A stretch of DNA of 64,000 nt from contig NZ_CP034346.1 in the NCBI RefSeq assembly GCF_003991425.1, positions 4,997,501 to 5,061,500 of the forward strand. Reading direction: 5' to 3'. The stretch's first letter is position 1. Each line of letters opens with the position of its first letter. The translations under genes and the position numbers were made by a program. Positions 1,192-30,975 of this stretch are shown here, in pieces. Below the pieces are notes generated by a model that was not told where the DNA came from, searched no databases, and worked only from the letters and a program-made list of their open reading frames with translations. The stretch is from Paenibacillus lutimineralis (GTDB taxonomy: Bacteria; Bacillota; Bacilli; Paenibacillales; Paenibacillaceae).

Positions 1192-2514
1192 TTATAGGCG
1201 CTCGATTCTCTTTAGCTTTTTTAACCCCTGATGCGGCTCATATGGCGTAAAATTAATATTTGGAACGACGCCGCCATGGGAACGAATTGTTCTTGTTAAT
1301 GATGCAGTAATAGTATCCTCTTGAATTGGAGCGTCCCCTTGCACCTGTATTTGCACTTCTAAATCACGGGACGGGTGCTGAAGCACCTTGTATTCGTCAA
1401 TCCTGTCCGAGCCCGAGTAAATGCTCTGCCGAATAAAGTCTGGGAAAATAGATACCTTTTCCTCGCCACTAGATGACAGAAACTCAAATATATCATCACT
1501 ACGTCCTTCAATTTGGGAGATGGCCGTTAGTGGTGATCCGCAAGGACATGGATCTTCCCGGAGCGTCAAAATATCATTAAGCCGATAATTAATAATCGGT
1601 TGAGAAGAACGGAACAGATCCGTTACGATCGGCATAAACTTCTTCCTGTCTGCTGTCACATACTCCCTCTTGACATAGAGCAAGTCCTCGTTCAAATGCA
1701 ATGTTCCATGCTCGCATGTCGCTCCCAGAAGCCCTTCGGTACATTGATAGACCTGGTGGACAGTCTGTCCAAACTGTCGCCCGATAAACTCCTCATCTAG
1801 CGGATCCAGCACTTCAGCAACACTAATGACCTTACGAGGAGCGATCGTCAGCTTGGAGTCCGCCTGCTGCACAGCCAGCATTCTTAACATCGAGGGCGGT
1901 GCAACGAGGATGGTCGGCTGCAACTGCTGCAGGTTATCTACATGCTGCTGCAAGGAATGGAGCAAGTCATAAAAGTGAAACTTAATCGTTCCGGACTGAA
2001 CAGATTCATATAAATTGCTATTAGCCCGTAAAAAGAAAGCGATTCGCTCTTTTGCCAACAACCCGTGTGGCAGTAACTTGGCTAGAATAATTCCCGCCCA
2101 TTGGCTCTGCTCGTCATCGGACACGAGGAAGAGCCCGCGATTCCCTGAAGTTCCAGAGGACATCCCTATCGTCATAGTCCCTATTCGCGGCGAAAAGTCC
2201 CGCGTCTCTTCACTCGACAGCGCCATCATGAACGCTTCCTCCTTCTGAATCCCGACCGTATTCAATGTATCAAAGTGATCCATCATCACTCTTTTATCAA
2301 TCGGCGTCAGAGATGCAAGCAATTCTTTAGCGGAATAGCCATTTGTAGAAGGCAGTTGCAAGTAGTATGAGTAAAAAAGAGAATGGTCGCTGACAAAGCG
2401 CAAATGCCTTTTCAACTGACGCTCTTGCCATTCCATTAATGCCCGCTCGTCGCGAAAGCGACGAAAATACTTCGTCCTCATATACCATTGCAGTACACGC
2501 AGTTTGTTGGTCAT
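1192..2514 (-). CDS. F390-synthetase-like adenylate-forming enzyme
   Basis: A 440-residue member of the adenylate-forming superfamily, closest in look to the phenylacetate-CoA ligase/coenzyme F390 synthetase branch. The P-loop-like motif is TIGMSSGTSGNRGLFLVS near residue 118. A YQCTEGLLG motif lies in the second half and a short DPCPCGSPL cysteine segment further on. Such enzymes activate a carboxylate as acyl-AMP and pass it to a thiol, amine or hydroxyl; the substrate here is unknown. It is the last gene of a six-gene minus-strand operon. Its ATG overlaps the stop of the preceding SDR gene (ATGA), with GGGAGGG upstream, so translation is probably coupled. It may catalyse the final ligation or lactonisation of the pathway, which is inference. 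Confidence 0.8.
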   Translation of the reverse strand: MTNKLRVLQWYMRTKYFRRFRDERALMEWQERQLKRHLRFVSDHSLFYSYYLQLPSTNGYSAKELLASLTPIDKRVMMDHFDTLNTVGIQKEEAFMMALSSEETRDFSPRIGTMTIGMSSGTSGNRGLFLVSDDEQSQWAGIILAKLLPHGLLAKERIAFFLRANSNLYESVQSGTIKFHFYDLLHSLQQHVDNLQQLQPTILVAPPSMLRMLAVQQADSKLTIAPRKVISVAEVLDPLDEEFIGRQFGQTVHQVYQCTEGLLGATCEHGTLHLNEDLLYVKREYVTADRKKFMPIVTDLFRSSQPIINYRLNDILTLREDPCPCGSPLTAISQIEGRSDDIFEFLSSSGEEKVSIFPDFIRQSIYSGSDRIDEYKVLQHPSRDLEVQIQVQGDAPIQEDTITASLTRTIRSHGGVVPNINFTPYEPHQGLKKLKRIERL

Positions 2515-3350
2515 TTGGCTACCCTCCCTTTTAAGAAGCGATAGACATATCCTTCAATCCAGCTCCAGGCCAGCCACCGTTTTCCGATAGCTAGAGCCTT
2601 TGCTCCCTTGCCGACGGGATAGCGAAATTTCGGTCTCTCCTTTTGGGCTATTTTCGCCACTAATCTGGCAACTTCCCGGGGATCAGCCCCGTTATCTCTA
2701 GATTTCATCGCTTCTTTAACTAAATTTTCCTGAAAGGCATTCTCGATCTGCTGCTCTGCGACTTTCTCCAGTCCTCGCTCCCAAATCTTCGTCTGATAGG
2801 CAGCTGGCTGAACGAGTGACACCCATATCCCCTCATTTAGCAGCTCCAGCCGCAGACTTTCACCCCAGCCCTCCAGTGCAAATTTCGAAGACGCATATGC
2901 AGACATCCCTGGAAAACCAAAAAATCCGCTCACACTGCTGATTGCAATCATTTTGCCGCTTCCATCTCTCGGTATGAATGGCAGCAAAGTCTTCGTCGTC
3001 CGCACGGCGCCAAAAAAGTTCGTCTGGAACTGGCTTTGCCACTCCTCCTCCGTTAGATCCTGAAAGAAACCGCCTTGGCAGTACCCCGCATTATTCACTA
3101 ACACTTGAATCTGTATGGAATGCTGTTCAAGATATGCAGCCACCAAGTCTAAATCCTCCTGCTTTGTCACATCAAGCTGCAATACGGTAAGTCTCCCCAG
3201 AACCGATAGCTCTTGGGCAAGCGCTTCGATCTGGGTGCGATTGTTAACATCCCGCATCGTGGCCAGAACATGAAATCCTTGATGGGCCAGCTCCAATGCC
3301 GTGTACATCCCAAAGCCACTGCTCGTCCCAGTCACAAGTGCATATTTCAT
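2511..3350 (-). CDS. Classical short-chain dehydrogenase/reductase
   Basis: A 279-residue NAD(P)-dependent oxidoreductase of the classical SDR family. The Rossmann motif TGTSSGFG lies at residues 7-14, NNAG at 86-89, a conserved serine near 139 and the catalytic YASSK (Tyr152, Lys156). I chose the ATG at 3350, not the upstream TTG at 3374, because GGAGGG lies 7-8 nt before it and it overlaps the previous gene's stop as ATGA. SDRs of this type reduce a keto group or oxidise an alcohol. In this operon a beta-keto product of the ketosynthase is a natural candidate substrate, though that is inference. Confidence 0.88.
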   Translation of the reverse strand: MKYALVTGTSSGFGMYTALELAHQGFHVLATMRDVNNRTQIEALAQELSVLGRLTVLQLDVTKQEDLDLVAAYLEQHSIQIQVLVNNAGYCQGGFFQDLTEEEWQSQFQTNFFGAVRTTKTLLPFIPRDGSGKMIAISSVSGFFGFPGMSAYASSKFALEGWGESLRLELLNEGIWVSLVQPAAYQTKIWERGLEKVAEQQIENAFQENLVKEAMKSRDNGADPREVARLVAKIAQKERPKFRYPVGKGAKALAIGKRWLAWSWIEGYVYRFLKGRVAK

Positions 3351-4183
3351 TCGAGTCCCTCCACTTCCCGACAATGAAAAGGAATCAATTGAACCGTCGG
3401 TTGTGTAATATGAAACTGATGAAGCTTATGTAATGTTTCCAGATACTCACTTCGGTCAGACAAAATAAGCGATGTCACCCTCATTGGGGGTGAATTGTCG
3501 CGGATTGCCGCACTGTCCCATGCCCCATCTGCCGCCAACAATACTTGCCGTTGCTCTGCCCTACATAGAAATCCCATCTGTCCTTCGGCATGGCCTGACA
3601 AATCGAAAGCTACGACCGTACCATCATGGAAAATATCGTATATTTCCGTCTCGAACACAGCCAGCTGCTGCCCAATAGAAGAATCTTGTGATACGGCATA
3701 GTCTTCTATAAATGATAACCTGCTCTCAAAATCATCGGGTAATAGAGAAGGAATAAAAGCTTTTTTTAAAGCTAGCAAACCGGACTGTCCTCTGACAGAC
3801 TCATACCCGCGTCTAGAGCAAAGAAAGGTCGCGTTCGGGAAATCCTTCAGGCCGGCAATATGGTCAGCATGGAAATGTGTAATTAATATCTTACGGATCT
3901 CCGACGGCTGAATTCCCCTCCGTTGCAATTGACTCGCCGCACTTTGTTCATCGCTAAAGTGAATAGGCGTTAATATCGCATACAGTTTATAGGGAAAACG
4001 GCTTGTCGCCGTACGAAAATGTGTCGCATAGCCCGTATCTACCAGTATATGACCTTCTGTCGGGTGTTCGAGGTGAAAGAATCGCGCTGGAAATTGCACG
4101 TGATGCAGCGGTTTCGTCCGATTCGTCAGTTTCTCTAGTTGTCCACAGGACCCGGTTGTATACATTTTAAGTTTCACGTACAT
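3347..4183 (-). CDS. MBL-fold metallo-hydrolase
   Basis: A 278-residue metallo-beta-lactamase-fold hydrolase. The metal-binding motif HFHADH is at residues 103-108, after ILVDTGYATHF, which carries the usual first-strand aspartate. Further ligands are likely in AADGAWD and in the C-terminal PFHCREVEG histidine. This layout is shared with N-acyl-homoserine lactonases and other small-molecule hydrolases. The ATG at 4183 is preferred because AAAGGA lies 7 nt upstream; it overlaps the end of the epimerase gene by 17 nt. A longer reading to 4276 adds a basic leader with no family support. In the operon it might open a lactone or cleave a thioester; the substrate is unknown. Confidence 0.83.
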   Translation of the reverse strand: MYVKLKMYTTGSCGQLEKLTNRTKPLHHVQFPARFFHLEHPTEGHILVDTGYATHFRTATSRFPYKLYAILTPIHFSDEQSAASQLQRRGIQPSEIRKILITHFHADHIAGLKDFPNATFLCSRRGYESVRGQSGLLALKKAFIPSLLPDDFESRLSFIEDYAVSQDSSIGQQLAVFETEIYDIFHDGTVVAFDLSGHAEGQMGFLCRAEQRQVLLAADGAWDSAAIRDNSPPMRVTSLILSDRSEYLETLHKLHQFHITQPTVQLIPFHCREVEGLE

Positions 4184-5168
4184 CTGTTTGTCCTTTCCAC
4201 CATTGGGCAAATAACTCAATTCCCTCTTCGATTGATATCTTCGGCTCATAGCCGAGCTCCTGACGCGCTTTCTCAATATTCAGTGTCTGCGTCCTGGCTA
4301 ATACCGTCACTGTATATCTGGTTAGAGTGGGCTCCTGGCCTTGTTGAAAAGTCCGGGAATACCATTCTAGAAAATGAGCAACTCGAAAAAGCAATTTTTC
4401 GTTCATTTTTTTTAGCCGCAGCGGTTCTCCGATACGTTCGAATAATAATTGCAATACCTTTACTAGCGAAATTGGCTCGCCATTGGTGATGTTGTATTTT
4501 TGGCCGAGTGTCCGCTGCTCTGAGGTTAAACTTAAGCAGATCGCATCGACCACGTTATCAACATACGTTAGATCAATCTGGACATCAGGATTCATGAACG
4601 GAACAAACTTACGTCTATTCACTTCGATCAAGCGTGGAATAATAGCATTGTCTTCAGGTCCGAACAAAGCTCTTGGCCTTAGGGTAATGACGGGGAGCCC
4701 TCGCACAAAGGCATCATCAATACGCTGCTCCGCTATACATTTAGTTTCCGTATAATGATTCATAAACTTCTGCGGCAGCGCCTCGTCTTCCCGCACATTG
4801 ACCCGGTCTTCGTTATGAAAGTACAGGCTTGGGGTCGATATATGTACGAACCGCTGTACGTTAGCGCGTAATGCCCCTTCAATCATATGCTCTGTGCCAA
4901 GCACATTCGCCTGATAGAATGAATCATAGGGCCCCCACGGTGAAGAAAGCGCACCGCTGTGCACAATAAGCTGCTGACCACTGCAGGCTTCTATAACTCG
5001 CTTGCGATCCTCCAGGTCGGCCTGAAAGAAGCGAATGCCTTCCTTTTCCAGTTCCATTCCAATCGCCCGATTGCGTCCCAGACCAGTTACTGTATGCCCC
5101 ATCTTTATAAGACGCCTGCAGGCTGCTTTGCCTAGAAAGCCCGTGGCCCCTGTTACCAATATGTTCAT
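4167..5168 (-). CDS. NAD-dependent epimerase/dehydratase family protein (extended SDR)
   Basis: A 333-residue extended SDR with the N-terminal nucleotide-binding motif GATGFLG (residues 7-13) and the catalytic YTETK near residue 138. Regions such as ISTPSLYF and TLRPRALFGP fit the 3-beta-hydroxysteroid dehydrogenase/OleD-like branch, which acts on beta-keto or beta-hydroxy acids, better than sugar epimerases. This subfamily placement is judgement, not computed. Its ATG overlaps the stop of the ATP-grasp gene as ATGA. In olefin/beta-lactone (Ole) pathways an enzyme of this family reduces the ketosynthase product, so its place two genes after a ketosynthase III is suggestive. Confidence 0.85.
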   Translation of the reverse strand: MNILVTGATGFLGKAACRRLIKMGHTVTGLGRNRAIGMELEKEGIRFFQADLEDRKRVIEACSGQQLIVHSGALSSPWGPYDSFYQANVLGTEHMIEGALRANVQRFVHISTPSLYFHNEDRVNVREDEALPQKFMNHYTETKCIAEQRIDDAFVRGLPVITLRPRALFGPEDNAIIPRLIEVNRRKFVPFMNPDVQIDLTYVDNVVDAICLSLTSEQRTLGQKYNITNGEPISLVKVLQLLFERIGEPLRLKKMNEKLLFRVAHFLEWYSRTFQQGQEPTLTRYTVTVLARTQTLNIEKARQELGYEPKISIEEGIELFAQWWKGQTDVRET

Positions 5169-6316
5169 TGCCTCTCACCATCCCATACAATATCAGCCGT
5201 TGTTGCCTCCAGCACTGAAATCCTTTGTCGCTTTGCTATTTTGGCGAACTGATAGGAAGCGTTAAGCTGGTACATAAACGGACACCAGTCCTGTCTATGA
5301 AACACCGCATCCTCTGAATCTCGCAGGGCTTGAATATATTTTCGTAGACCATGTTGCTTCACTTGTTGTCCCGCAAAAATACACATGGCTCCTATAAGTG
5401 AAACTCTCCTGTTAGAAGTAGGTATCAGGATTCCTCCAGAACCAGTTACAAACTTCTCCACCAGCGCGGTGTGACGAAATAGATGAATGCCACTCGTTAA
5501 ACGCGGGTTGCACTCGATCGGATAACAACGGCCGTCGCTATGGCAAATGAAATCAAAGGCAATTTGTCCCGTCCAGTTCGTCTTTCTAACAAACTCCCGA
5601 ACCCATTGTTCAATTTCTTCTTGCCTCTCATGTTGGAAAGATATCGTTGCCCCTGCACCAACACGAAACTCACTTTTATACGTCGTATGTGCGATGACTT
5701 CTCCATTTCTAGCAAATGAATATGTGCAATACTGATCCCCTTGGAGCAACGGTTGAATAACCCATCCCTTTTTATAATTGATCGGCTTCTCTCGGTCCAT
5801 AGGTAAGTAGATCAGCTCACTCGAGGACCTTGTATACACGGGCTTGGCGATATATTTCTCATTGGCAGGCAAGTCATCCAGCTGATTGTACCACTGTTCC
5901 TCCGAATCAATATAATAGGTTTCTGGAACGAGCAGACCTAATCGCTTCGCCCATTCGATAAACTCAAATTTATGGTGTACACGAAGCAATCGGTCCGCAC
6001 GTTCCGCCAGAAGCGTACAGCTTGCCGGGAACGAATCTTGAAATTGTGCAATCGTAAAGATCTCTTCACAAGTTGGTATGAGTAGATCGATCTGCTCTGC
6101 AACGACAATTTTTACGAGTTCATCTATAAAAGCTTGAGGCCGCTGCTTCGCGGCAGGAACATCATGAAAGGCTTCAATCGCCTTGCTCACTCTGCATAGT
6201 GCATATGGAAAGCTATCTGCCACATGCACATAATAACCTTGTTGGGAAAACAGCCGTGCAAGCTCCAATGTTGCCGGAGCGCGTCCGCCTGTTAACAAGA
6301 CTCTATTAATATTCAA
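5165..6316 (-). CDS. ATP-grasp domain carboxylate ligase
   Basis: A 383-residue ATP-grasp protein. The N-terminal NINRVLLTGGRAPATLELAR is a Rossmann-like pre-ATP-grasp start. The centre has KYIAKPVYTRSS (ATP-binding lysine) and GWVIQPLL, and IAFDFICHSDGRCYPIECN carries the acidic metal ligands and the ExN end of the fold. Such enzymes form acyl-phosphates and couple them to an amine or thiol. I chose the TTG at 6316 because a GGGGG stretch lies about 8 nt upstream; an earlier TTG at 6331 has weaker support. The gene overlaps the ketosynthase by 11 nt. The likely role is joining the ketosynthase-derived acid to an amino or amide group, which is inference. Confidence 0.83.
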   Translation of the reverse strand: MNINRVLLTGGRAPATLELARLFSQQGYYVHVADSFPYALCRVSKAIEAFHDVPAAKQRPQAFIDELVKIVVAEQIDLLIPTCEEIFTIAQFQDSFPASCTLLAERADRLLRVHHKFEFIEWAKRLGLLVPETYYIDSEEQWYNQLDDLPANEKYIAKPVYTRSSSELIYLPMDREKPINYKKGWVIQPLLQGDQYCTYSFARNGEVIAHTTYKSEFRVGAGATISFQHERQEEIEQWVREFVRKTNWTGQIAFDFICHSDGRCYPIECNPRLTSGIHLFRHTALVEKFVTGSGGILIPTSNRRVSLIGAMCIFAGQQVKQHGLRKYIQALRDSEDAVFHRQDWCPFMYQLNASYQFAKIAKRQRISVLEATTADIVWDGERQ

Positions 6317-7289
6317 ACACAATTCCCCCAATGGATAACCCGGCAGAGGTACCCAACAATAAAGCCTTCTGCCCTCTTAGCAAGCGGTCGCTCTGAATGG
6401 CTTCATGCAAGGTAAGCGGAATGGAAGACGCGATGGTATTTCCGTAGTTTTCGATGATTTGGATAAAACGTTCCTGTTTCACGCCGATTTTCTTCTGCAT
6501 GATGCGCAGAGCCATCCCGCTCGCTTGATGCGGAATCACAGCATCCATATCCTGTATAGTCATAGGTGTATTCGCATAGAGCTTGTCTAAAAATCCTAAA
6601 ATATGCTTGGAGCTCAGCCTGAACACGCCCTGCCCATCCATGGAAAATAAATAGTCCTCTTTGACCGGATGGGAGTTCGGATGATTTTTAGTTCCACCAC
6701 CGCGTATTTCTGTTAATTGCGCTCCTTCACTATATGTCTCCATATAGGATCCTAAAATGCCACAAGTGTCCTCTGCTTCTGCACGTGCCAACACACAAGC
6801 CGCGGCTGCATCGCCGAACAATATATAGCTCTCCTTCTGCTTCGGATTAATTCCGACAGAGGCAATATCCGCAGAGACAATTAACACCTTCTCATAGGAG
6901 CCGCCCGCAATCATTTGAGACACAATATCAAAAGCCGTAACAAAGCTTAGACAGGTCGAATTAATATCAAATGCCGGGATCGGCCTAGATGGTGCTAGTT
7001 TTTGATGGATCAGGGACGCTGTACATGGTATCGGCTGCTCCATCGTACCGCTTGCGCAGACAATCGCATCGATCTCATCCAGCTCCAATGAAGCATCGCT
7101 CAGAGCTTGCAGTGCTGCCTTCGCTCCCATAGATGAAGCATGTTCTCCCTTTGCGTAATAGCGTGTTTTGACACCCGACTTTTTCTCCGCCCATCCCCTC
7201 GGCAACTGCAGCATCTGATCCAGTTCTGCCGAATCTACTTTATGCTCAGGGATATACTTACCTGTACCCATGATTTTTACTTTGCGCAT
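6306..7289 (-). CDS. 3-oxoacyl-ACP synthase III-like ketosynthase
   Basis: A 327-residue FabH/OleA-type thiolase-fold condensing enzyme. The full catalytic triad is visible: Cys113 in DINSTCLSF, His254 in VIPHQASGMA, and Asn284 in NYGNTIASSIP. FabH normally starts fatty-acid synthesis, but here the gene heads a six-gene operon without ACP, malonyltransferase or other fab genes, which argues for a specialised acyl condensation. The ATG at 7289 has AGAGAGGA 8 nt upstream. A possible promoter lies within the 197-nt gap upstream (TTGGAA-N16-TAATCA), not strong. Chain length and acceptor cannot be predicted. Confidence 0.9.
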   Translation of the reverse strand: MRKVKIMGTGKYIPEHKVDSAELDQMLQLPRGWAEKKSGVKTRYYAKGEHASSMGAKAALQALSDASLELDEIDAIVCASGTMEQPIPCTASLIHQKLAPSRPIPAFDINSTCLSFVTAFDIVSQMIAGGSYEKVLIVSADIASVGINPKQKESYILFGDAAAACVLARAEAEDTCGILGSYMETYSEGAQLTEIRGGGTKNHPNSHPVKEDYLFSMDGQGVFRLSSKHILGFLDKLYANTPMTIQDMDAVIPHQASGMALRIMQKKIGVKQERFIQIIENYGNTIASSIPLTLHEAIQSDRLLRGQKALLLGTSAGLSIGGIVFEY

Positions 7290-7430
7290 AAGATGTCCTC
7301 TCTAGAAATAAATAAAAGTTATGTATGATTACGTATGTTACCAAACTTTCCAAGTTGAATCATGGTTAAGAAGTCCCTGATGTATCGACAAAAGCCCCAA
7401 ATATTCGACCGAAGACGGAATAACACAAAG

Positions 7431-7474
7431 AGAGCTTTCCTCAGTAAGCAGATTTCTACTTCTGGGAAAGCCCT
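7431..7474 (-). terminator. Weak hairpin after chitinase gene
   Basis: The arms GGGCTTTCC and GGAAAGCTC (minus-strand sense) pair across a loop of about 23 nt just downstream of the chitinase stop. The T-tract (TTTGTGTT) is poor, so termination may be partial. Confidence 0.4.
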
Positions 7475-7486
7475 GGCTTTTATCGG

Positions 7487-9562
7487 TTAATGCGGTAAGT
7501 CATTGGAGACGACGGACTGTAAAGTGCGGTTTCTGTCTGCGTTTAATTCCCAGAACATCGCGCCGCGCAATCCTTTGGTTTTGATAAACTCATTTTTCAA
7601 ATGGATGGATTGCTCGTCATCATACGTAATGAAGATTTTCGTAGAAGGATTGTAGAGGAATGGAGTCTGTGTCACACTGTTCCAATAGCGGGTATAACCT
7701 TGGCCAGCCACGGTATATTTACCACTAGAATCAGCGGATAGCAGGCCCGTATTTTGCATAAAGGCGAAGTCATATGTCGAGCCGTCGGAACCACCTGTGG
7801 CTTCACCGTTACAGCTTTGATACAACCCGTTGTTATTGGGACCCGCATTACATCCCTTCCAGCCGTAGCCATAGAACGGTTCGCCTACGGTTAGTTTATT
7901 GGCAGGGATGCTCTTGTTCAAATAGTTAGTTACCGTGGAATTAATGTTGAATTGACTGTTGCCATTCGTGTTGGCCGGGTCATTGTACAATGGCGATACG
8001 ATACCGCTTGTAGCGTCCCATGGACCATAGTAGTCGTATGTCATGATATTGATCCAGTCTAGATACTGCACAGCGTTGGACAACCAGTTGTTCGTACCGC
8101 CTGCATCGGCAAGGAAGCTGGAGTTCGCGCTGGAAGCGATTGTAATATAGTAATGCTTGCCATCTTGTTGTCCGGCTGTATCAAGGGCTTGACGAAGTGT
8201 CTGCAGAAGCAGGACGTAGTTCGCTTTGTCGGCTGTACGTTGGCATGTTTGACCTGATGCGCAAGGTACGCCAATGCTGTTCGGATATTCCCAGTCGATA
8301 TCGATCCCGTCGAATTGATATTGACGCAAGAAGTTGACAGCGGAAGTGGCGAAGTTGCTTCTTGTTACCGGGTCATTCGCCGTGTTGGAGAATTGGTTGG
8401 ACCAAGTCCAGCCGCCGACAGAGGCGAACAATTTAAGATTTGGATTTGTATTTTTAAGCTGTCTTATCGTAACTAATTGGTTGTAACCGCCATCGGCTGT
8501 CCCGTCGGTGAATGGATCTCCAAGCACGATAGAACCGTTCGGTGCATTACTGGCTGTGCCATCGCCGTTTTGACAGGTCCATGTGTTGGGATTGGGGTTA
8601 TCCGTACTCTTGGAAGGATTGCCATGTTTGCCGTTCCAACAAATATCCAGGAAGGCATAGTTGATAACAGTTACTTTTGTGGGGTCAATATTGGCAGGGG
8701 TAAAGGACGGCGTATCGTAAGCAGCCCAACTTGGGAAGTAACCAATGATCTCATATTGGGTTGAGTTTTGAGAAAGGGTTGTAACGGTGAGCGCATTACT
8801 AGCGGGGGAAACATTACCTGCTGCATCCTTTGCTTTCACTATAAAAGTGTAAGAGGTGTTCGCAGTTAAGCCTGTTACCGTGTAGGAAGTTGTATTCGAA
8901 GAGCCAGCCAGCGTCGTGCCATTATAAATATCGTAGCCCGTGACGCCGATGTTGTCTGTCGAGGCGGTCCAGCTTAGGGATACCGAGCTTGTAGTTACTG
9001 TAGGTGCTGTTAGGTTATTAGGTGCTGTTGGCGGCTCTGTGTCTACAACAGGCGCTCCTGTCGTGACGTTGACTGGTGCGCTGGCTGCTGATACGTTGCC
9101 GGCAGCATCTTTTGCTGTGACAGTGAACGTGTAGGCTGTACTAGCGCTTAATCCCGTAACTGTATAGGAAGTCGTTGCCGAAGAACCGGCGATCGTAGAA
9201 CCGTTGTACACATCATACCCCGTAACACCCACATTATCCGTTGAAGCCGTCCAAGTTAATGTAACGGTACTACTTGTCACGTTGCTCGCTATTACATTAG
9301 TAGGCGCCGTTGGTGGCTGCGTATCCGCAGGAGATGATTGTTTGCTCCAAAGCGCCGGAACATTCGGCGGTTCCCATCCAACGAGAGAGGTATGTCCTTG
9401 TACACATTGGTAAGTATCTGTTCCATAGGTGACAATATCGCCTGTTTTATAAGTAGTATTAGGTTCCCAAGGTGCCGCACCCAGGGCGGTTAATGGTACG
9501 GCTGTGAATACCATGATGATAACAAGAAGCAAGATAGCGCTAACTTTTTTGACTTTTCTCAA
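7487..9562 (-). CDS. Secreted GH18 chitinase with CBM5/12 and two FnIII domains
   Basis: A 691-residue extracellular chitinase. Residues 1-30 are a Sec signal peptide (basic start, LLLVIIMVF core, ALGAA cleavage region). About 31-75 is a chitin-binding module of the CBM5/12 type (TYKTGDIVTYG, TYQCVQGH, GWEPPNVPALW). Two similar fibronectin III domains follow at about 82-168 and 175-262. The GH18 barrel holds the catalytic DGIDIDWEYP motif near residue 415, plus the MTYDYYGPWD strand and a C-terminal GAMFWELNAD. It hydrolyses beta-1,4 linkages in chitin and resembles chitinases A1/D of the Bacillus circulans group. The start is a TTG; the upstream GGAGTGTGATC resembles the anti-16S sequence. 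An inverted-repeat pair upstream may control it. Confidence 0.95.
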   Translation of the reverse strand: MRKVKKVSAILLLVIIMVFTAVPLTALGAAPWEPNTTYKTGDIVTYGTDTYQCVQGHTSLVGWEPPNVPALWSKQSSPADTQPPTAPTNVIASNVTSSTVTLTWTASTDNVGVTGYDVYNGSTIAGSSATTSYTVTGLSASTAYTFTVTAKDAAGNVSAASAPVNVTTGAPVVDTEPPTAPNNLTAPTVTTSSVSLSWTASTDNIGVTGYDIYNGTTLAGSSNTTSYTVTGLTANTSYTFIVKAKDAAGNVSPASNALTVTTLSQNSTQYEIIGYFPSWAAYDTPSFTPANIDPTKVTVINYAFLDICWNGKHGNPSKSTDNPNPNTWTCQNGDGTASNAPNGSIVLGDPFTDGTADGGYNQLVTIRQLKNTNPNLKLFASVGGWTWSNQFSNTANDPVTRSNFATSAVNFLRQYQFDGIDIDWEYPNSIGVPCASGQTCQRTADKANYVLLLQTLRQALDTAGQQDGKHYYITIASSANSSFLADAGGTNNWLSNAVQYLDWINIMTYDYYGPWDATSGIVSPLYNDPANTNGNSQFNINSTVTNYLNKSIPANKLTVGEPFYGYGWKGCNAGPNNNGLYQSCNGEATGGSDGSTYDFAFMQNTGLLSADSSGKYTVAGQGYTRYWNSVTQTPFLYNPSTKIFITYDDEQSIHLKNEFIKTKGLRGAMFWELNADRNRTLQSVVSNDLPH

Positions 9563-14325: not shown

Positions 14326-15969
<1,644 letters not shown>

Positions 15970-24627: not shown

Positions 24628-27600
24628 CTATAGTATCGTGGACTCATCCTTGCTTGCGATCGCAATCCAGGTGATAAAGCCATAATTGATCGGACTATCC
24701 TTCAGTCTTGATATCTCAACAGTAGCCATATCCGGGGACCGATCCTTCAAACTAACATAGTACGCTGGATGATTGGTCATCGCCACAAGCACATAATGCG
24801 CATGATCAAAGGGCTCATCAAAATGAATTGTAATCTCGGTCGACTTCTCATAACCTTGCAGTAAGAATGCTGACATGCCGAACTGTTGTATAGCCTGTTG
24901 ACCGCTGATTGCCTGGACCGGATTAATCCTTAAATGCTCGGAGCCTACAGAATTTGGCGACAGATGATTAGATGTGATTGATCCATAAGCCAGATGCCGG
25001 GACTGCACAGAATCATCCACCAGATGATACCCGAATACTGATCCTTCTTGGATATGTTCTGAGCTGACCGACCATTTCGACAGATGATTGGATTCTACTG
25101 CTCCGTCAGCCAAATGATGTGACTGAACAGATTCATTGACCAGATGATTTCCGGATACTGACTCTTCCTGAATATGCTCAGAACCAACGGAGTGCTTCGA
25201 TAGATGATTGGATTCTACCGCCTCAGCAGACAAATGACGGGACTGTATGGATTCATCGACCAGATGATAGCCGTATACAGCGCCCTCCTGAATATGCTCA
25301 GAACCAACGGAGTGCTTCGACAGATGATTAGATTCTACCGCTTCAGCAGACAAATGACGGGATTGTATGGATTCATTGACCAGATGATTTCCAGATACTG
25401 ACTCTTCCTGAATATGCTCGGAGCCAACGGAGTGCTTCGACAGATGATTAGATTCTACCGCTTCAGCAGACAAATGACGGGACTGTATGGATTCATTGAC
25501 CAGATGATTTCCAGATACTGACTCTTCCTGAATATGCTCGGAGCCCACGGAGTGCTTCGACAGATGATTAGATTCTACTGCATCAGCAGACAAATGACGG
25601 GACTGTATGGATTCATCGACCAAATGATTTCCAGATACTGACTGTTCCTGAATATGCTCGGAGCCCACGGAGTGCTTCGACAGATGATTAGATTCTACCG
25701 CCTCAGCAGACAAATGACGGGACTGTATGGATTCATCGACCAGATGATAGCCGAGTACAGAGCCCTCCTGAATATGCTCAGAACTAACCGATTGCTGACT
25801 AAGTACGTCAGAATCTACCGTATTATCCTGCAGATGCTCTCGGGAGACCGAGCCCGCCTGGATATCTTCTCCCCGGATCCCGCCTTCAGGCAAGAAGCCG
25901 TGTTCTCTAATCTCCACTGCTAAGTGCTCTCTGCTGATCACGTTAGGTGCAATATGATGCGAAGCAATCGCCTTCTGCTCAATATGCGTGCCATCGATGC
26001 AATTCTCTGTAAGATGTCGCGAACTGACCGAATTCTCCGCCAGATGCTGCGCTTGCACCGACTCAGCAGTCAAATGCAGGCTGAAGATCGAATTGGACTG
26101 CAAATGATCGGCTCCCACAGAGTGACTCTGGAGCACACCCGCATCTACGGCATTTTGCTCTAGATGAACACGGCTAATTGAGCCGGGCTGCAGCTCTTTA
26201 CCGCTGATACCGTTCTTCGGAAGTAGACCCTCCTGCTGAAGCTCAGGAGATAGATGAGCGCGATTTACAGAGCCTTCACGAAGATGCCGTGAATAAACAG
26301 CTCCTTCATGGATGTGGGAGTCATGCACACTGCCTTCCATCAAATGCTGTGCTTTGATAATATTCGAAGATAGATGCTGAATCTGCACAGCTTCATCCGC
26401 CAGATGATACCCGGACACCGAGCCTTCCTGAATATGTTCCGAGCTAACCGACCATCTCGACAGATGATTGGATTCTACTGCTCCATCAGCCAAATGGTGG
26501 GACTGCACAGATTCATTGACCAGATGATTTCCAGATACTGACTCTTCCTGAATATGCTCGGAGCCAACAGAGCGCTTCGACAGATGATTGGATTCTACCG
26601 CATCAGCAGACAAATGACGGGACTGTATGGATTCATCGATCAGATGGTGGCTGAATACCGATCCCTCCTGAATATGCTCAGAACCGACCGATTGCTGACT
26701 CAACACGTCGGAATCTACCGTATTATCCAGCAAATGCTCTCGGGAGACCGAGCCCGCCTGGATATCTTCTCCTCGGATCCCGCCTTCAGGCAACAAGCCG
26801 TGTTCTCTAATCTCCACTGCTAAATGCTCTCTGCTGATCACGTTAGGTGCAATATGATGTGAAGCAATCGCCTTCTGCTCAATATGGGTGCCATCGATGC
26901 AATTCTCTATAAGATGTCGCGAACTGACCGAATTCTCCGCCAGATGCTGCGCTTGCACCGACTCAGCAGTCAAATGCAGGCTGGAGATTGAATTGGCCTT
27001 CAAATGCACGGCTCCCACAGAGTGACTCTGGAGCACATCTGCATCAACGGCGTTTTGCTCTAGATGAATACGGCTAATTGAGCCGGGCCGCAGATCTTTA
27101 CCGCTGATTCCATTCTTTGGAAGCAGCCCCTCCTGCTGAAGCTCGGGAGATAGATGAGCGTGATTTACAGAGCCTTCACGAAGATGCCGTGAATAAACAG
27201 CCCCTTCATGGATATGGGAGTCATGCACACTGCCTTCCGTCAAATGCTGTGCTTTGATAATATTCGAAGATAAATGCTGGATCTGTACAGCTTCATCCGC
27301 CAGGTGATACCCGGACACCGAGCCTTCCCGAATATGTTCCGAACTAACCGAACATTTCGACAGATGATTGGATTCTACTGCTCCATCAGCCAAATGGTGG
27401 GACTGCACAGATTTATTGACCAGATGGCCTCCAGATACTGACTCTTCCTGAATATGCTCGGAGCCAACGGAGTGCTTCGACAGATGATTAGATTCCACTA
27501 CATCAGTAGACAAATGACGGGACTGTATGGATTCATCGACCAGATGGTGGCTGAATACCGATCCCTCCTGAATATGCTCAGAACCGACCGATTGCTGACT

Positions 27601-30600
27601 CAGTACGTCGGAATCCACCGTATTATCCAGCAGATGCTCTCGGGAGACCGAGCCCACCTGGATATCCTCTCCTCGGATCCCATGTTCAGGCAGTAGGCCT
27701 TGTTCTCTAAGCTCCTTTGCCAAATGCCCACGGCTGATCACGTTAGGAACAATATGATGCGAAGCAATCGCCTTCTGCCTAATATGGGCACCACCGATGC
27801 AATTCTCTGTAATATTCCGCGAACTGATCGAATTCTCCGCCAGATGCTGCGCCTGTACCGACTCATCCGTCAGATGTAGACTGAAGATCGAATTGGCCTG
27901 CAAATGCACGGCTCCCACAGAGTGACTCTGGAGCACATCTGCATCAACGGCATTTTGCTCTAGATGAACGCGGCTGACCGAGCCGGGCCTTAGGTCTGTA
28001 CCGCTGAGTCCATCCTTCGGAAGTAGCCCCGCCTGCTGAAGCTCAGGAGATAGATGAACGTGATTTACGGAGCCTTCACGAAGATGTTGTGAATCAACAG
28101 CTCCTTCATGGATGTGGGAGTCATGCACACTGCCTTCCGTCAAATGCCGTGCTTCGATAATATTCGAAGATAAATGCTGAATCTGCACAGCTTCATCCGC
28201 CAGATGATAGCTTTGCACCGATTTCAGCTGCAAGTGCAGCGAACCAACCGATTCATTCTGCAGCGCTTCATCATCAACAGCACCTTTTTGCAGGTGCGTG
28301 CGACTGATTGAGCCGGATTGTAGACTTTTTCCGCCAATCCCCCCTTCGGGCAGGATGCCTTCTCGCACAATCTCCTCATCCATCAGTACCTTAGAAATCA
28401 CGCCAGGCTGGATATGCTCAGCCGTAACCGACCCTTTCGCAAGCGTTTCGCTGTCAATAGTTCCCGGGACGATATGACGGGACTGGACAGCTCCGTCGGC
28501 CAGATGATCGCTCTGTACCGAAGAAGCAACGATATGCTGACTTTGGACGCTATGTGCCTGCAGATGGCCTATACCTACCGAGCCAAGCTGCAGAACCTCT
28601 CCATCGACCGCTCCCTTCTGCAAATGAGCGCGACGAATGGATGAAGGCTGAATGTCCATTCCGCTAATTCCTGCTTCCGGCAGCAGTCCTCCCTCCTGCA
28701 ATTCAAGGGACAGATGCTCTAGCTTCACTACCTGAGGAGTGAGGTGATGCGATTCGATTACACCTTCCCCAATGTGTGTTCCCTTAATGTTGGCCTCTGC
28801 CAGATGACGAGACTGAACCGTGCGATCCGCTATTTTGTCGGAAGTGACTGCTTGATTTTGCAATGCTTGCCCGGGCACCGATTCGGTTGTAAAGTGATCC
28901 TCCGTGAGTACATTGGTTTGTAAGTGACTGGCGTCAACCGCAGCCTTCGCTAAATGCTGTGACTTAACGGCGCCCTCTGCCAAATCCTTGGATAGTATCG
29001 CCCCCTCTGCCAAATGCCAGGATTGAATCGTCTCTGGGGCGATTTTAGAGGAGACCACACTGCCTTCTGCCAGTTTACTGCTCGTAATCGACAGATCTGT
29101 AATCTTGTCGCTGCTCACGCTCTCTGGGGATAGCTTCAAGGCCGTCACAGCATGGTCCTGCAAATGATAAGAGAAGATGACTCCCTTCTGCAAATGGTCC
29201 TCATGAATCGAATCCTTCTGCAGTTTGTCGCTGCTCACGCTGTTCTGAGCCAGATGCTGCTGCTGAATCGAGCCGGAGACAATATGACTTGACTGCACTT
29301 GATTGTCCCCAATGATTTTGCTAGTGACTGCTCCCCTCACGAGTTTACTCTCGGTCACGCTGCCTTCGGCCAGCTTCTCCGATACAATGCTCCCAGGCTG
29401 GAGATGTCTCTCTTCGATGGCTTCCTCTGAAATATGCTCACCAATAATCGCATCGATATCGATCTTATCACCGGTAACTGCGGAACCGGCAAGATGCCAT
29501 TCCTGAACTGCATTAGGGGAGATGTGATCGCGATGTACTGCCCCCTGCTGTATATGTGCAGCATTAAGCGTATTAGTCGCAATTTGCGGCCCTTGCACAG
29601 ATCCTTTAGCCAAATGCCTTGTCAGTACGGATTCATCCGCCAGCTTATGTGGCAATATGCTCTGGTCGGCAATCTTCGAAGAAGTAACTGACTGCTCAAC
29701 GATCTGTGAAGTTCCGACAGACTGATCGGCTAGCTTAGTAGAGATGATACTGCGATCCGCCAAATGCCTACCCTTGATTTCACTGCTTCCAATGTGTTCT
29801 TCTCTAACGCTGCCAGCTTGCAGATGGATACTCCCAATAGCGCCTAGAGCAATATGCCCCCCCTCTACGACTTTCTCCTTGAGATGATGCGCAGCCACGC
29901 TTCCCTTCTCAATCTGCTCAGCCCCTACGCTGGCATGGGCCAGATGCTCTTTGGCGATCAATCCGGGCCCGAGATTATTAATGGTGATTGCATTCTCAGC
30001 TAGATGACGGCTCTCAATCACGCCGTCCTGCAGCTTAGCTCCCGTTACGGACCCGTCCCTCAGCTTCGCAGAGGTAACAGCACCTTCGCTCAATTTGGAA
30101 GTATCAATCGCTGTATTGGCGATATGATAGGAATGAATACTTCCACTGCGCAGCTTCTCTGTAGTTACCGCCTGATCCTGAATCAGATCCGTCGTTACGA
30201 TCCATTCCCGCAAATGGCGGCTCTCAATGGATCCGTCGGCGAGCTTCTCTCCACCAATCACACCATCAGCGAATTTATCGGCAGTAATACTACCTTCCTC
30301 CAGCTTGCTTCCGCTGATCGAACGTTCACGAATCTTTCGTCCTTCAATGGCTCCATCCACCAAATGATCGGCTGTGATGGAGCCGGGGGCGATCTTGGAG
30401 GAATTTACTGCCGATTCGGCAATTTTAATATTGCTTACCGAATAATCAGCGATCCATGCAGTACCGATCGCCCCATGCCTGATCTTGGTCGAGTCGATGG
30501 TAAACGGTGCAATTTTATCACCTGTTACAGATGAACTCGATAGATCGTCAGTGTAAATAATTCCTTTCTCGAGCTGTGAGGCTCTTTTTTCCTGAAGGGC

Positions 30601-30975
30601 TTCCTTTACCATCTGATCATGCCGGGCAAGCTGCCCAGATTCATTCTGCGCTACTCTCTCCTTAGCGCTCAGATCCTTGGCCTCCTGCAGTTTTGAAGCC
30701 TGCTCGGACCCCTCATGGGAAAGAGAACCCTGTGCATGCTTCTGTTCCACTGTGTATTCGTCAACCTCAACCATTGCAAGAGACTGGTGTAGTTTGATCT
30801 CCTTTTCCTCCTGCTGGCTCTCGGCCTTGAAAGAACTCAGCAGATTCAGTTCATTCATATCCGGGTTATCCACGAAGTATAGCGAGTTTTTTGGCCTGCC
30901 GTTTTTCGCGGTTTTCGTTCGCTTTTTCAGAGCCGTCCTCCCCTTTGCCAAAAGATAAATCTCCTTAGGCATCAT
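24628..30975 (-). CDS. Giant decapeptide-repeat protein, WIAG-tail-like
   Basis: A 2115-residue protein with no signal peptide or membrane segment. Residues 1-135 are charged and probably helical. About 140-2030 is an unbroken run of roughly 190 decapeptides of pattern xSVxSxHLxx (examples SVGSEHIQEE, AVESNHLSKH). The first units mostly have Lys at position 7 (SSKLADGSVT), later ones His. The last 85 residues form a distinct domain ending in YGFITWIAIASKDE, which resembles the WIAG-tail domain of Paenibacillus repeat proteins; this match is from memory. A parallel beta-solenoid is the likely fold. The ATG at 30975 has AGGAG about 14 nt upstream; a TTG at 30951 with AAGGAG 9 nt upstream is an alternative. 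Function unknown; a surface, spore or fibre role is only conjecture. Confidence 0.85.
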   Translation of the reverse strand: MMPKEIYLLAKGRTALKKRTKTAKNGRPKNSLYFVDNPDMNELNLLSSFKAESQQEEKEIKLHQSLAMVEVDEYTVEQKHAQGSLSHEGSEQASKLQEAKDLSAKERVAQNESGQLARHDQMVKEALQEKRASQLEKGIIYTDDLSSSSVTGDKIAPFTIDSTKIRHGAIGTAWIADYSVSNIKIAESAVNSSKIAPGSITADHLVDGAIEGRKIRERSISGSKLEEGSITADKFADGVIGGEKLADGSIESRHLREWIVTTDLIQDQAVTTEKLRSGSIHSYHIANTAIDTSKLSEGAVTSAKLRDGSVTGAKLQDGVIESRHLAENAITINNLGPGLIAKEHLAHASVGAEQIEKGSVAAHHLKEKVVEGGHIALGAIGSIHLQAGSVREEHIGSSEIKGRHLADRSIISTKLADQSVGTSQIVEQSVTSSKIADQSILPHKLADESVLTRHLAKGSVQGPQIATNTLNAAHIQQGAVHRDHISPNAVQEWHLAGSAVTGDKIDIDAIIGEHISEEAIEERHLQPGSIVSEKLAEGSVTESKLVRGAVTSKIIGDNQVQSSHIVSGSIQQQHLAQNSVSSDKLQKDSIHEDHLQKGVIFSYHLQDHAVTALKLSPESVSSDKITDLSITSSKLAEGSVVSSKIAPETIQSWHLAEGAILSKDLAEGAVKSQHLAKAAVDASHLQTNVLTEDHFTTESVPGQALQNQAVTSDKIADRTVQSRHLAEANIKGTHIGEGVIESHHLTPQVVKLEHLSLELQEGGLLPEAGISGMDIQPSSIRRAHLQKGAVDGEVLQLGSVGIGHLQAHSVQSQHIVASSVQSDHLADGAVQSRHIVPGTIDSETLAKGSVTAEHIQPGVISKVLMDEEIVREGILPEGGIGGKSLQSGSISRTHLQKGAVDDEALQNESVGSLHLQLKSVQSYHLADEAVQIQHLSSNIIEARHLTEGSVHDSHIHEGAVDSQHLREGSVNHVHLSPELQQAGLLPKDGLSGTDLRPGSVSRVHLEQNAVDADVLQSHSVGAVHLQANSIFSLHLTDESVQAQHLAENSISSRNITENCIGGAHIRQKAIASHHIVPNVISRGHLAKELREQGLLPEHGIRGEDIQVGSVSREHLLDNTVDSDVLSQQSVGSEHIQEGSVFSHHLVDESIQSRHLSTDVVESNHLSKHSVGSEHIQEESVSGGHLVNKSVQSHHLADGAVESNHLSKCSVSSEHIREGSVSGYHLADEAVQIQHLSSNIIKAQHLTEGSVHDSHIHEGAVYSRHLREGSVNHAHLSPELQQEGLLPKNGISGKDLRPGSISRIHLEQNAVDADVLQSHSVGAVHLKANSISSLHLTAESVQAQHLAENSVSSRHLIENCIDGTHIEQKAIASHHIAPNVISREHLAVEIREHGLLPEGGIRGEDIQAGSVSREHLLDNTVDSDVLSQQSVGSEHIQEGSVFSHHLIDESIQSRHLSADAVESNHLSKRSVGSEHIQEESVSGNHLVNESVQSHHLADGAVESNHLSRWSVSSEHIQEGSVSGYHLADEAVQIQHLSSNIIKAQHLMEGSVHDSHIHEGAVYSRHLREGSVNRAHLSPELQQEGLLPKNGISGKELQPGSISRVHLEQNAVDAGVLQSHSVGADHLQSNSIFSLHLTAESVQAQHLAENSVSSRHLTENCIDGTHIEQKAIASHHIAPNVISREHLAVEIREHGFLPEGGIRGEDIQAGSVSREHLQDNTVDSDVLSQQSVSSEHIQEGSVLGYHLVDESIQSRHLSAEAVESNHLSKHSVGSEHIQEQSVSGNHLVDESIQSRHLSADAVESNHLSKHSVGSEHIQEESVSGNHLVNESIQSRHLSAEAVESNHLSKHSVGSEHIQEESVSGNHLVNESIQSRHLSAEAVESNHLSKHSVGSEHIQEGAVYGYHLVDESIQSRHLSAEAVESNHLSKHSVGSEHIQEESVSGNHLVNESVQSHHLADGAVESNHLSKWSVSSEHIQEGSVFGYHLVDDSVQSRHLAYGSITSNHLSPNSVGSEHLRINPVQAISGQQAIQQFGMSAFLLQGYEKSTEITIHFDEPFDHAHYVLVAMTNHPAYYVSLKDRSPDMATVEISRLKDSPINYGFITWIAIASKDESTIL
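24961..25800 (-). repeat. 120-bp tandem repeat array inside the giant gene
   Basis: Seven consecutive 120-bp units (40 residues, four decapeptides) of high similarity encode the pattern ESIQSRHLSA-EAVESNHLSK-HSVGSEHIQE-ESVSGNHLVN. Units at 25321-25440 and 25441-25560 differ at only a few bases. Confidence 0.93.
25681..28200 (-). repeat. 900-bp super-repeat inside the giant gene
   Basis: The blocks starting at 25681, 26581 and 27481 are near-identical at an exact 900-bp offset (30 decapeptides); the third is cut off or diverged after about 720 bp. Each block contains the break segment LLPEGGIRGEDIQAGS and its sister LLPKNGISGKDLRPGS. Confidence 0.92.

Follow-up and report, generated by a model that had tools for sequence, protein, structure and literature searches.

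The locus examined here raises the question of whether six closely packed genes of Paenibacillus lutimineralis form a single biosynthetic pathway and, if so, what that pathway would make. The genes lie in a window of 64,000 nucleotides (the whole stretch analysed, bases 4997501–5061500 of a single-contig genome of 6.5 Mb), where they run from 7289 to 1192 on the minus strand as intact open reading frames (ORFs). In order, they encode a ketosynthase III (KS), an ATP-grasp ligase, an extended short-chain dehydrogenase/reductase (SDRe), a hydrolase of the metallo-beta-lactamase (MBL) fold, a classical short-chain dehydrogenase/reductase (SDRc) and a ligase related to coenzyme F390 synthetase (F390). 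The conserved unit is KS, SDRe, MBL and F390, not the six genes. Judged from the sequences, the operon appears to be a member of a widespread uncharacterised system, which would probably make a hydroxyacyl lipid-like molecule from the acyl-coenzyme A (acyl-CoA) or acyl carrier protein (ACP) substrates of the host; we give this reading, taken as a whole, roughly even confidence.

Four genes that occur together

Related loci were gathered with the F390 protein as the only query, and the best 80 of 214 stretches encoding an F390 relative in named genomes were compared. Families were counted by a six-frame profile search of the whole loci, several of which end at contig ends, because picking the longest ORFs first had overlooked genes in loci that are GC-rich or overlapping. 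F390 was found in 80/80 loci, KS in 78, SDRe in 75 and MBL in 75; of the further families, ATP-grasp was present in 74, a GNAT/FemAB-like protein (G5) in 49 and SDRc in 42. The complete core is present in 72 of the 80 loci, accompanied by ATP-grasp in 69, and 36 loci hold all six families of the window. Where SDRc is present it follows F390 in 39 of 42 cases, lies elsewhere in two and precedes F390 in one, an Evansella locus without MBL (L036); the order MBL–SDRc–F390 seen in the window is found in none of the 80. The six genes as a unit, which the initial, sequence-only reading had taken to be the pathway, are thus ruled out, and the constant part is four genes. A one-off local operon is also ruled out, by recurrence in the genus, in other phyla, on plasmids and in Escherichia coli. 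A search with a single G5 protein (from L038) gave no match elsewhere in the window's genome, which is a weak negative.

The order KS–SDRe–MBL–F390 is annotated in Ketogulonicigenium, Paracoccus, Rhizobium and Shinella, and also in Roseateles, Paraburkholderia, Pseudomonas FeN3W and E. coli, the ligase being called a hypothetical protein or CoF synthetase in some Pseudomonadota. The families were confirmed at the annotated coordinates of the 15 annotated loci checked (within L186–L202, where L189 and L193 are one and the same E. coli cluster), and 12 of these 15 hold all four core genes. In Pseudomonas Leaf58 the four genes are spread over ∼10 kb, and in P. amygdali pMPPla107 F390 lies ∼18 kb from KS. 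An unannotated Fusobacterium locus has the order SDRe–MBL–F390–KS, by profile only. Despite having the same four genes in the same order, the core proteins of Pseudomonadota and Bacillota are often less than 45% identical.

The annotated cluster of E. coli ABU 83972 (L193, 5001–11882) is a compact seven-gene island between narI and tRNA-Tyr/purU. KS, SDRe, MBL and F390 are followed by genes for a PAP2 phosphatase, a fatty-acid hydroxylase and a fatty-acid desaturase, with overlaps of 4–23 nt at the junctions. The island is matched in 672 of 5426 complete E. coli genomes, an uneven sample of the species, and 671 of the matches cover at least 80% of the query. Its F390 scores 755 bits against TIGR02304, its KS scores 333 bits, under the NF005541 cut-off, and the sole NCBIfam match of its hydroxylase is the ornithine-lipid hydroxylase OlsE, at 67 bits against a cut-off of 475.

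Linkage was also assessed in whole genomes. Of the 40 genomes of the window's genus, 13 have F390 over cut-off. KS exceeds its own cut-off in 12 of these and in no other, each time within 5 kb of F390; the thirteenth genome has a KS fragment running into the MBL gene, a decayed copy. The association gives a Fisher p of 2e-9, which is only indicative because the genomes are related. In an even draw of 299 genomes from the phylum, F390 is over cut-off in six and KS is found at E ≤ 1e-80 in five, all among the six and with the two genes adjacent; contig breaks split the F390 gene of genome G145. A Streptococcus-type genus (the label is taken from its proteins) has F390 in 15 of 58 genomes, with the order SDRe–MBL–F390–KS in 8/8 loci examined, one of which (L166) has ATP-grasp and G5 in front. 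Among plasmid records, KS is found in 30 and F390 in 27, with both within 20 kb in 26 (the overlap was compared by eye from the full lists, and five records are Ketogulonicigenium vulgare); from the same lists, Legionella and Monoglobus have a KS match only and Natrinema an F390 match only. The control genome, Deinobacterium chartae, has matches for both. The linkage of KS and F390 is far beyond chance.

The sequence-only reading had asked whether the genes are unlinked elsewhere. They are linked, except in two cyanobacterial genomes, where they are partly dispersed yet co-occurring. F390 is over cut-off in four of 146 genomes of a cyanobacterial draw, and two loci with F390 only (L110 and L111) come from genomes that have KS, SDRe and MBL elsewhere: in Planktothrix the three are no more than 6 kb apart and F390 is on a different contig, and in an Oscillatoriales metagenome-assembled genome SDRe–MBL and KS are on separate contigs. 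Among related loci, L145 is decayed, its KS fragment running into the MBL region and its ATP-grasp and SDRe lost, and L144 has a broken extra KS upstream of an intact operon.

The distance matrices computed for the four core proteins correlate closely across 81 distinct loci (r 0.92–0.94, or 0.92–0.95 with doubled rows kept; L190 and L201, whose KSs are outside core clusters, were excluded), the maximum of 200 label shuffles per pair being 0.17. This agreement is joint inheritance, and is compatible with joint transfer or common descent. It could be argued that unrelated enzymes are simply kept together by chance or by a single recent horizontal transfer, as the patchy distribution (13/40, 6/299 and 4/146 genomes in the three draws) and the copies on plasmids would allow. 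Against this stand the same gene set and order in divergent Pseudomonadota and Bacillota, the co-occurrence kept in the two partly dispersed cyanobacterial genomes, and the near-invariant active sites. Such an origin is very improbable and is already contradicted.

The operon and its surroundings

With our preferred starts, which were chosen with guidance from ribosome-binding-site-like sequence, the junction overlaps from KS to F390 are 11, 4, 17, 4 and 4 nt (Table 1), and the overlap range of 4–17 nt given earlier holds. The MBL ORF extends back to 4276, ATG 4183 being the preferred start, and that of SDRc extends back to 3374. For the ATP-grasp gene, TTG is the only start type near the beginning of the ORF, and ‘gggggaa’ precedes TTG 6316. 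The description of six coupled genes on one strand, intact and with their catalytic motifs, stands. The operon holds no ACP, polyketide synthase (PKS) or non-ribosomal peptide synthetase (NRPS) gene, as had been claimed, and the reading as one coupled biosynthetic operon without a carrier protein of its own is supported. Eight large ORFs of the window outside the operon gave no Pfam match to PKS or NRPS domains at 1e-8, and a promoter and terminator scan of 7000–7800 gave no signal clearly above chance.

Table 1. Genes of the operon, with window coordinates
Gene product	Position	Strand	Remarks
Ketosynthase III (KS; PRK07204 / NF005541)	6306..7289	-	First gene; Cys113-His254-Asn284; Ile87 at the OleA/PpyS Glu position
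ATP-grasp ligase (PRK06849-like)	5165..6331	-	Likely start TTG 6316; optional tailoring gene
Extended SDR (SDRe; OleD / 3beta-HSD-like)	4167..5168	-	Ser111-Tyr139-Lys143; core gene
MBL-fold hydrolase, AHL-lactonase-like	3347..4183	-	Metal-ligand positions complete; core gene
Classical SDR (SDRc; PRK06914-like)	2511..3350	-	Optional; in relatives usually downstream of F390
F390-synthetase-related ligase (F390; TIGR02304)	1192..2514	-	PaaK-like fold; C-terminal Lys433; core gene
AHL, acyl-homoserine lactone; HSD, hydroxysteroid dehydrogenase; SDR, short-chain dehydrogenase/reductase.

About 200 nt upstream of the operon, on the same strand, is a gene for a GH18 chitinase with fibronectin III and CBM5/12 domains (7487–9562, minus strand). 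Further away, both on the minus strand, are an ORF of 542 aa for a Cpn60/TCP-1-type chaperonin (14326–15954, 266 bits) and one of 2115 aa (24628–30975) that matches no Pfam family at 1e-8.

Active sites and the chemistries they suggest

Alignments were made of proteins within set length ranges, with duplicate rows removed, giving 95–112 distinct sequences per family; four doubled pairs (L094/L117, L098/L141, L101/L145 and L103/L144), which accounted for three or four rows in each family, were counted once. The KS of the window exceeds its NCBIfam cut-off (NF005541, 455 against 402 bits). The KS set of 112 includes two proteins from outside core clusters, L201 and L190; the latter, from a Priestia megaterium plasmid (L190, 9001–12629), scores 350 bits against the core profile. 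The Cys-His-Asn triad that had been reported as intact is exact, and is found in 112/112 sequences. In PMC4578411, the glutamates E117 of OleA and E105 of PpyS are the base, and the PpyS E105 column corresponds to V94 of MxnB. Placed through MxnB V94, itself located by counting back from C121, this column holds Ile in 75 of the operon-type KSs, Leu in 36, Gly in one and Glu in none, which argues against condensation of the OleA/PpyS type.

The nearest solved KS chains are MxnB (318 bits) and CorB (302 bits), the best FabH scoring 256 bits and PqsD (3h76) 148 bits. In a midpoint-rooted tree, from which the Sericytochromatia KS (L174) was left out, 28 operon KSs form one group (87/91), apart from FabH. 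This group is joined to MxnB/CorB with modest support (87/64). A CLSF motif and a GGG segment are common to MxnB, CorB and most operon KSs, and the three FabH chains compared are without them. The KS might be pictured as an enzyme of the MxnB kind, joining a pair of beta-ketoacyl chains into a pyrone or a diketone which the other enzymes would then reduce and open. MxnB itself fuses two beta-ketoacyl chains (PMC5724707), and the shared motifs, the hydrophobic residue at the Glu position and the bit scores are all in keeping with this. Since the operon has neither a PKS nor a carrier protein on which two beta-keto chains could be presented, and since support for the grouping is so modest, we find this reading rather improbable.

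The Streptococcus-type KSs (L116, L162, L164 and L166) lack a segment of ∼16 residues holding Trp33. This Trp aligns with the one that helps FabH to bind CoA, and the substrate carrier of the Streptococcus-type KSs may therefore differ.

SDRe has its Ser, Tyr and Lys in 100/100 distinct sequences. Its nearest NCBIfam relative is OleD, far under the cut-off (231 against 580 bits), and among solved structures it matches a sterol-4-carboxylate 3-dehydrogenase best. In MBL, the HxHxDH motif and the His, Asp and His metal ligands are present in 95/95 sequences, the last His in 91 with a gap in four. Here the nearest NCBIfam match is the AttM lactonase, again far under the cut-off (88 against 390 bits). 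The position of the active-site Tyr is Trp in 93/95 and Tyr in 2/95; this Tyr is a catalytic residue in AiiA.

These two enzymes bear on a route in which the logic of the Ole pathway is carried out by other enzymes: a beta-keto acid would be reduced by SDRe, closed to a beta-lactone by the ligase and opened by MBL. The four core enzymes do correspond in type to OleA, OleD, OleC and OleB, SDRe matches OleD best, and MBL is nearest to the AHL lactonases. Set against this are Ile or Leu at the Glu position in 111/112 KSs, the wide shortfall of SDRe from the OleD cut-off, and the fold of the ligase, which is that of PaaK, with no OleC structure among the 50 matches listed. We consider such a route quite unlikely; the Ole pathway as such is ruled out by the KS glutamate position and the OleD score. 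The parallel with Ole drawn in the sequence-only reading survives in part, on the level of function, as condensation, reduction, adenylation and a lactonase-like hydrolase in the place of OleB. It fails for the KS, which is without the Glu; the ligase has a PaaK-like fold. OleB has the alpha/beta-hydrolase fold and the cluster hydrolase that of MBL, bearing out the claim that OleB is absent.

F390 is well over its cut-off (TIGR02304, 526 against 252 bits). The adenylation motifs are kept in 106/106 sequences, namely a GTSG-type loop (one with Thr for Ser), Tyr256-Thr259-Glu260 and the C-terminal Lys433. The structural model (predicted local distance difference test, pLDDT, 88.5) has a PaaK-like fold, with TM-scores of ∼0.6. 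The fold search is headed by PaaK-type ligases, the first of them a putative acyl-CoA ligase of Bacteroides, followed by several enzymes of aryl acids, among them PaaK1, NatL2 (salicylate) and ClxA (3-amino-4-hydroxybenzoate); such a fold does not in itself predict the substrate. All core active sites are, on these alignments, near-invariant.

Such neighbours raise the alternative of an aromatic route like that of the Pseudomonas quinolone signal (PQS), in which F390 would make an aryl-CoA, KS would condense it and MBL would be a thioesterase like PqsE, the SDRs and ATP-grasp modifying the aromatic ketone. A ligase, a beta-ketoacyl-ACP synthase III (KASIII) and an MBL thioesterase are indeed the trio of the PQS pathway, and PqsD is found among the relatives of KS. 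PqsD is, however, a more distant relative of KS than MxnB/CorB and FabH are, the E. coli core is followed by desaturase, hydroxylase and PAP2 lipid genes, and the operon is without a gene forming an aryl acid. A PQS-like route is thus improbable.

The two optional enzymes of the window both fall just under their cut-offs (ATP-grasp, NF005315, 383 against 406 bits; SDRc, NF005372, 310 against 320 bits). The ATP-grasp model (pLDDT 93.2) matches the folds of PylC, PurK, carbamoyl-phosphate synthase and L-amino-acid ligases alike, and therefore gives no substrate.

Exchangeable genes, the proposed product and known systems

Around the core, genes are added or swapped: ATP-grasp, SDRc, GNAT, Rieske, glycosyltransferase, sulfotransferase, or the PAP2, hydroxylase and desaturase set. 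The Rhizobium, Shinella and Roseateles editions add GNAT (kin of G5), Rieske and ATP-grasp. Similarly, the operon of Paenibacillus castaneae is immediately followed (L092, 10314–13635) by genes for a second ATP-grasp enzyme, a GNAT-like protein and a Rieske oxygenase, a set resembling those of Rhizobium and Shinella. A GT21/HpnI-like glycosyltransferase adjoins F390 in a locus of the window's genus (L140) and KS in Planktothrix. A glycosyltransferase-like gene stands in front of four of the eight Streptococcus-type loci (L116, L162, L163 and L167), and that of L116, the only one of the four scanned, is MGT-like. In Paracoccus and Ketogulonicigenium, a divergent TetR gene and a sulfotransferase gene are adjacent to the cluster. 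The Rieske protein of L195 (14171–15160) has SdmA as its best NCBIfam match (59 bits against a cut-off of 600) and the window SDRe (4167–5168) also matches SdmB (106 bits against 600), which together with the sterol-4-carboxylate 3-dehydrogenase structure make a faint echo of sterol demethylase.

A fixed core with changing decorators suggests to us an amphiphilic product whose head group can be exchanged. The proposal builds on a gene content, intact active sites, linkage, shared history and exchange of tailoring genes that are demonstrated. In outline, KS would load an acyl chain on Cys113 and condense it with malonyl-ACP or another beta-keto-activated partner, and SDRe would reduce the beta-ketone. 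MBL would release the acid from its thioester, or open a lactone, and F390 would adenylate the acid and hand it to CoA, a carrier or an acceptor. In the window's edition, ATP-grasp might join an amine or amino acid, with SDRc adding a further redox change. A hydroxyacyl lipid-like product is, in our judgement from the sequences, about as probable as not, and the order of steps given here is doubtful.

The lipid or amphiphile reading leans, by analogy, on the E. coli additions, the GT21/HpnI-like and MGT-like glycosyltransferases and the sulfotransferases. Several observations weigh against it. The window has none of these lipid-type additions, so that the reading is carried over from relatives with different tailoring. 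Within the PaaK family, the ligases with an established substrate act for the most part on aryl acids, as would be fitting for an aromatic product. By profile, eight of the 80 loci lack at least one core gene near F390 (L036, L057, L058, L066, L101, L107, L110 and L111), tblastn detecting a partial SDRe in L057 and L066. The sixth F390 genome of the phylum draw has a divergent F390 (290 bits) without KS, the KS of the Priestia plasmid adjoins ACP and MMPL genes without the other three core genes, and one Paracoccus carries a related KS alone.

It is possible, though tentative, that a single modular pathway extends from the Paenibacillus type to Planktothrix, Rhizobium, the Streptococcus type and E. 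coli, making a novel class of lipid with lineage-specific makers of the head group. With the same reservation, these makers would be of the ATP-grasp/GNAT/Rieske amide, glycosyl, sulfate, or phosphatase/hydroxylase/desaturase types. If this is true, ∼12% of complete E. coli genomes carry a conserved pathway that many bacteria of soils and hosts have as well, and the glycosyl-, sulfo-, amide- and phosphatase-type swaps on a fixed core amount to a natural set of analogues. The compact E. coli island makes the pathway directly testable.

The literature searched, which was covered in part and without a query directed at the E. coli island, gave no description of the gene set and, in line with the sequence-only reading, no characterised pathway with the exact set. 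A ligase annotated as F390 synthetase has a proposed lipid role in a fatty-acid cluster of D. psychrophila (PMC2649909), a P. aeruginosa genome-comparison table lists ‘Coenzyme F390 synthetase’ (PMC5467263), and a transposon-mutant table includes an F390 synthetase entry (PMC9823363); the link of these three entries to the window ligase is by name.

Of the known systems, the families TIGR02304 and NF005541/PRK07204 have cut-offs that the window ligase and KS, respectively, exceed; both are names of single proteins, and the rows seen give no pathway. The AiiA and AttM lactonases share with MBL the fold and the metal-ligand positions, and differ in the residue at the AiiA Tyr, mostly Trp here, and in equivalog cut-offs far above the scores obtained. 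The PQS pathway (PqsA, PqsD and PqsE) likewise brings together an adenylating ligase, a KASIII and an MBL-fold hydrolase, whereas the window operon has two SDRs and ATP-grasp, no PqsBC, and a KS nearer to MxnB and FabH. MxnB and CorB, of myxopyronin and corallopyronin, share with KS the Cys-His-Asn triad, CLSF, GGG and the hydrophobic residue at the Glu position (PMC4578411); they work within type I PKS lines to give an alpha-pyrone, whereas the KS of the window has SDR, MBL and ligase partners and no PKS in its operon. With OleABCD the operon has in common a condensing enzyme, an extended SDR nearest to OleD, an adenylating enzyme and a lactone-type hydrolase, and it differs in a KS without the OleA/PpyS glutamate, a ligase of the PaaK type and MBL instead of OleB.

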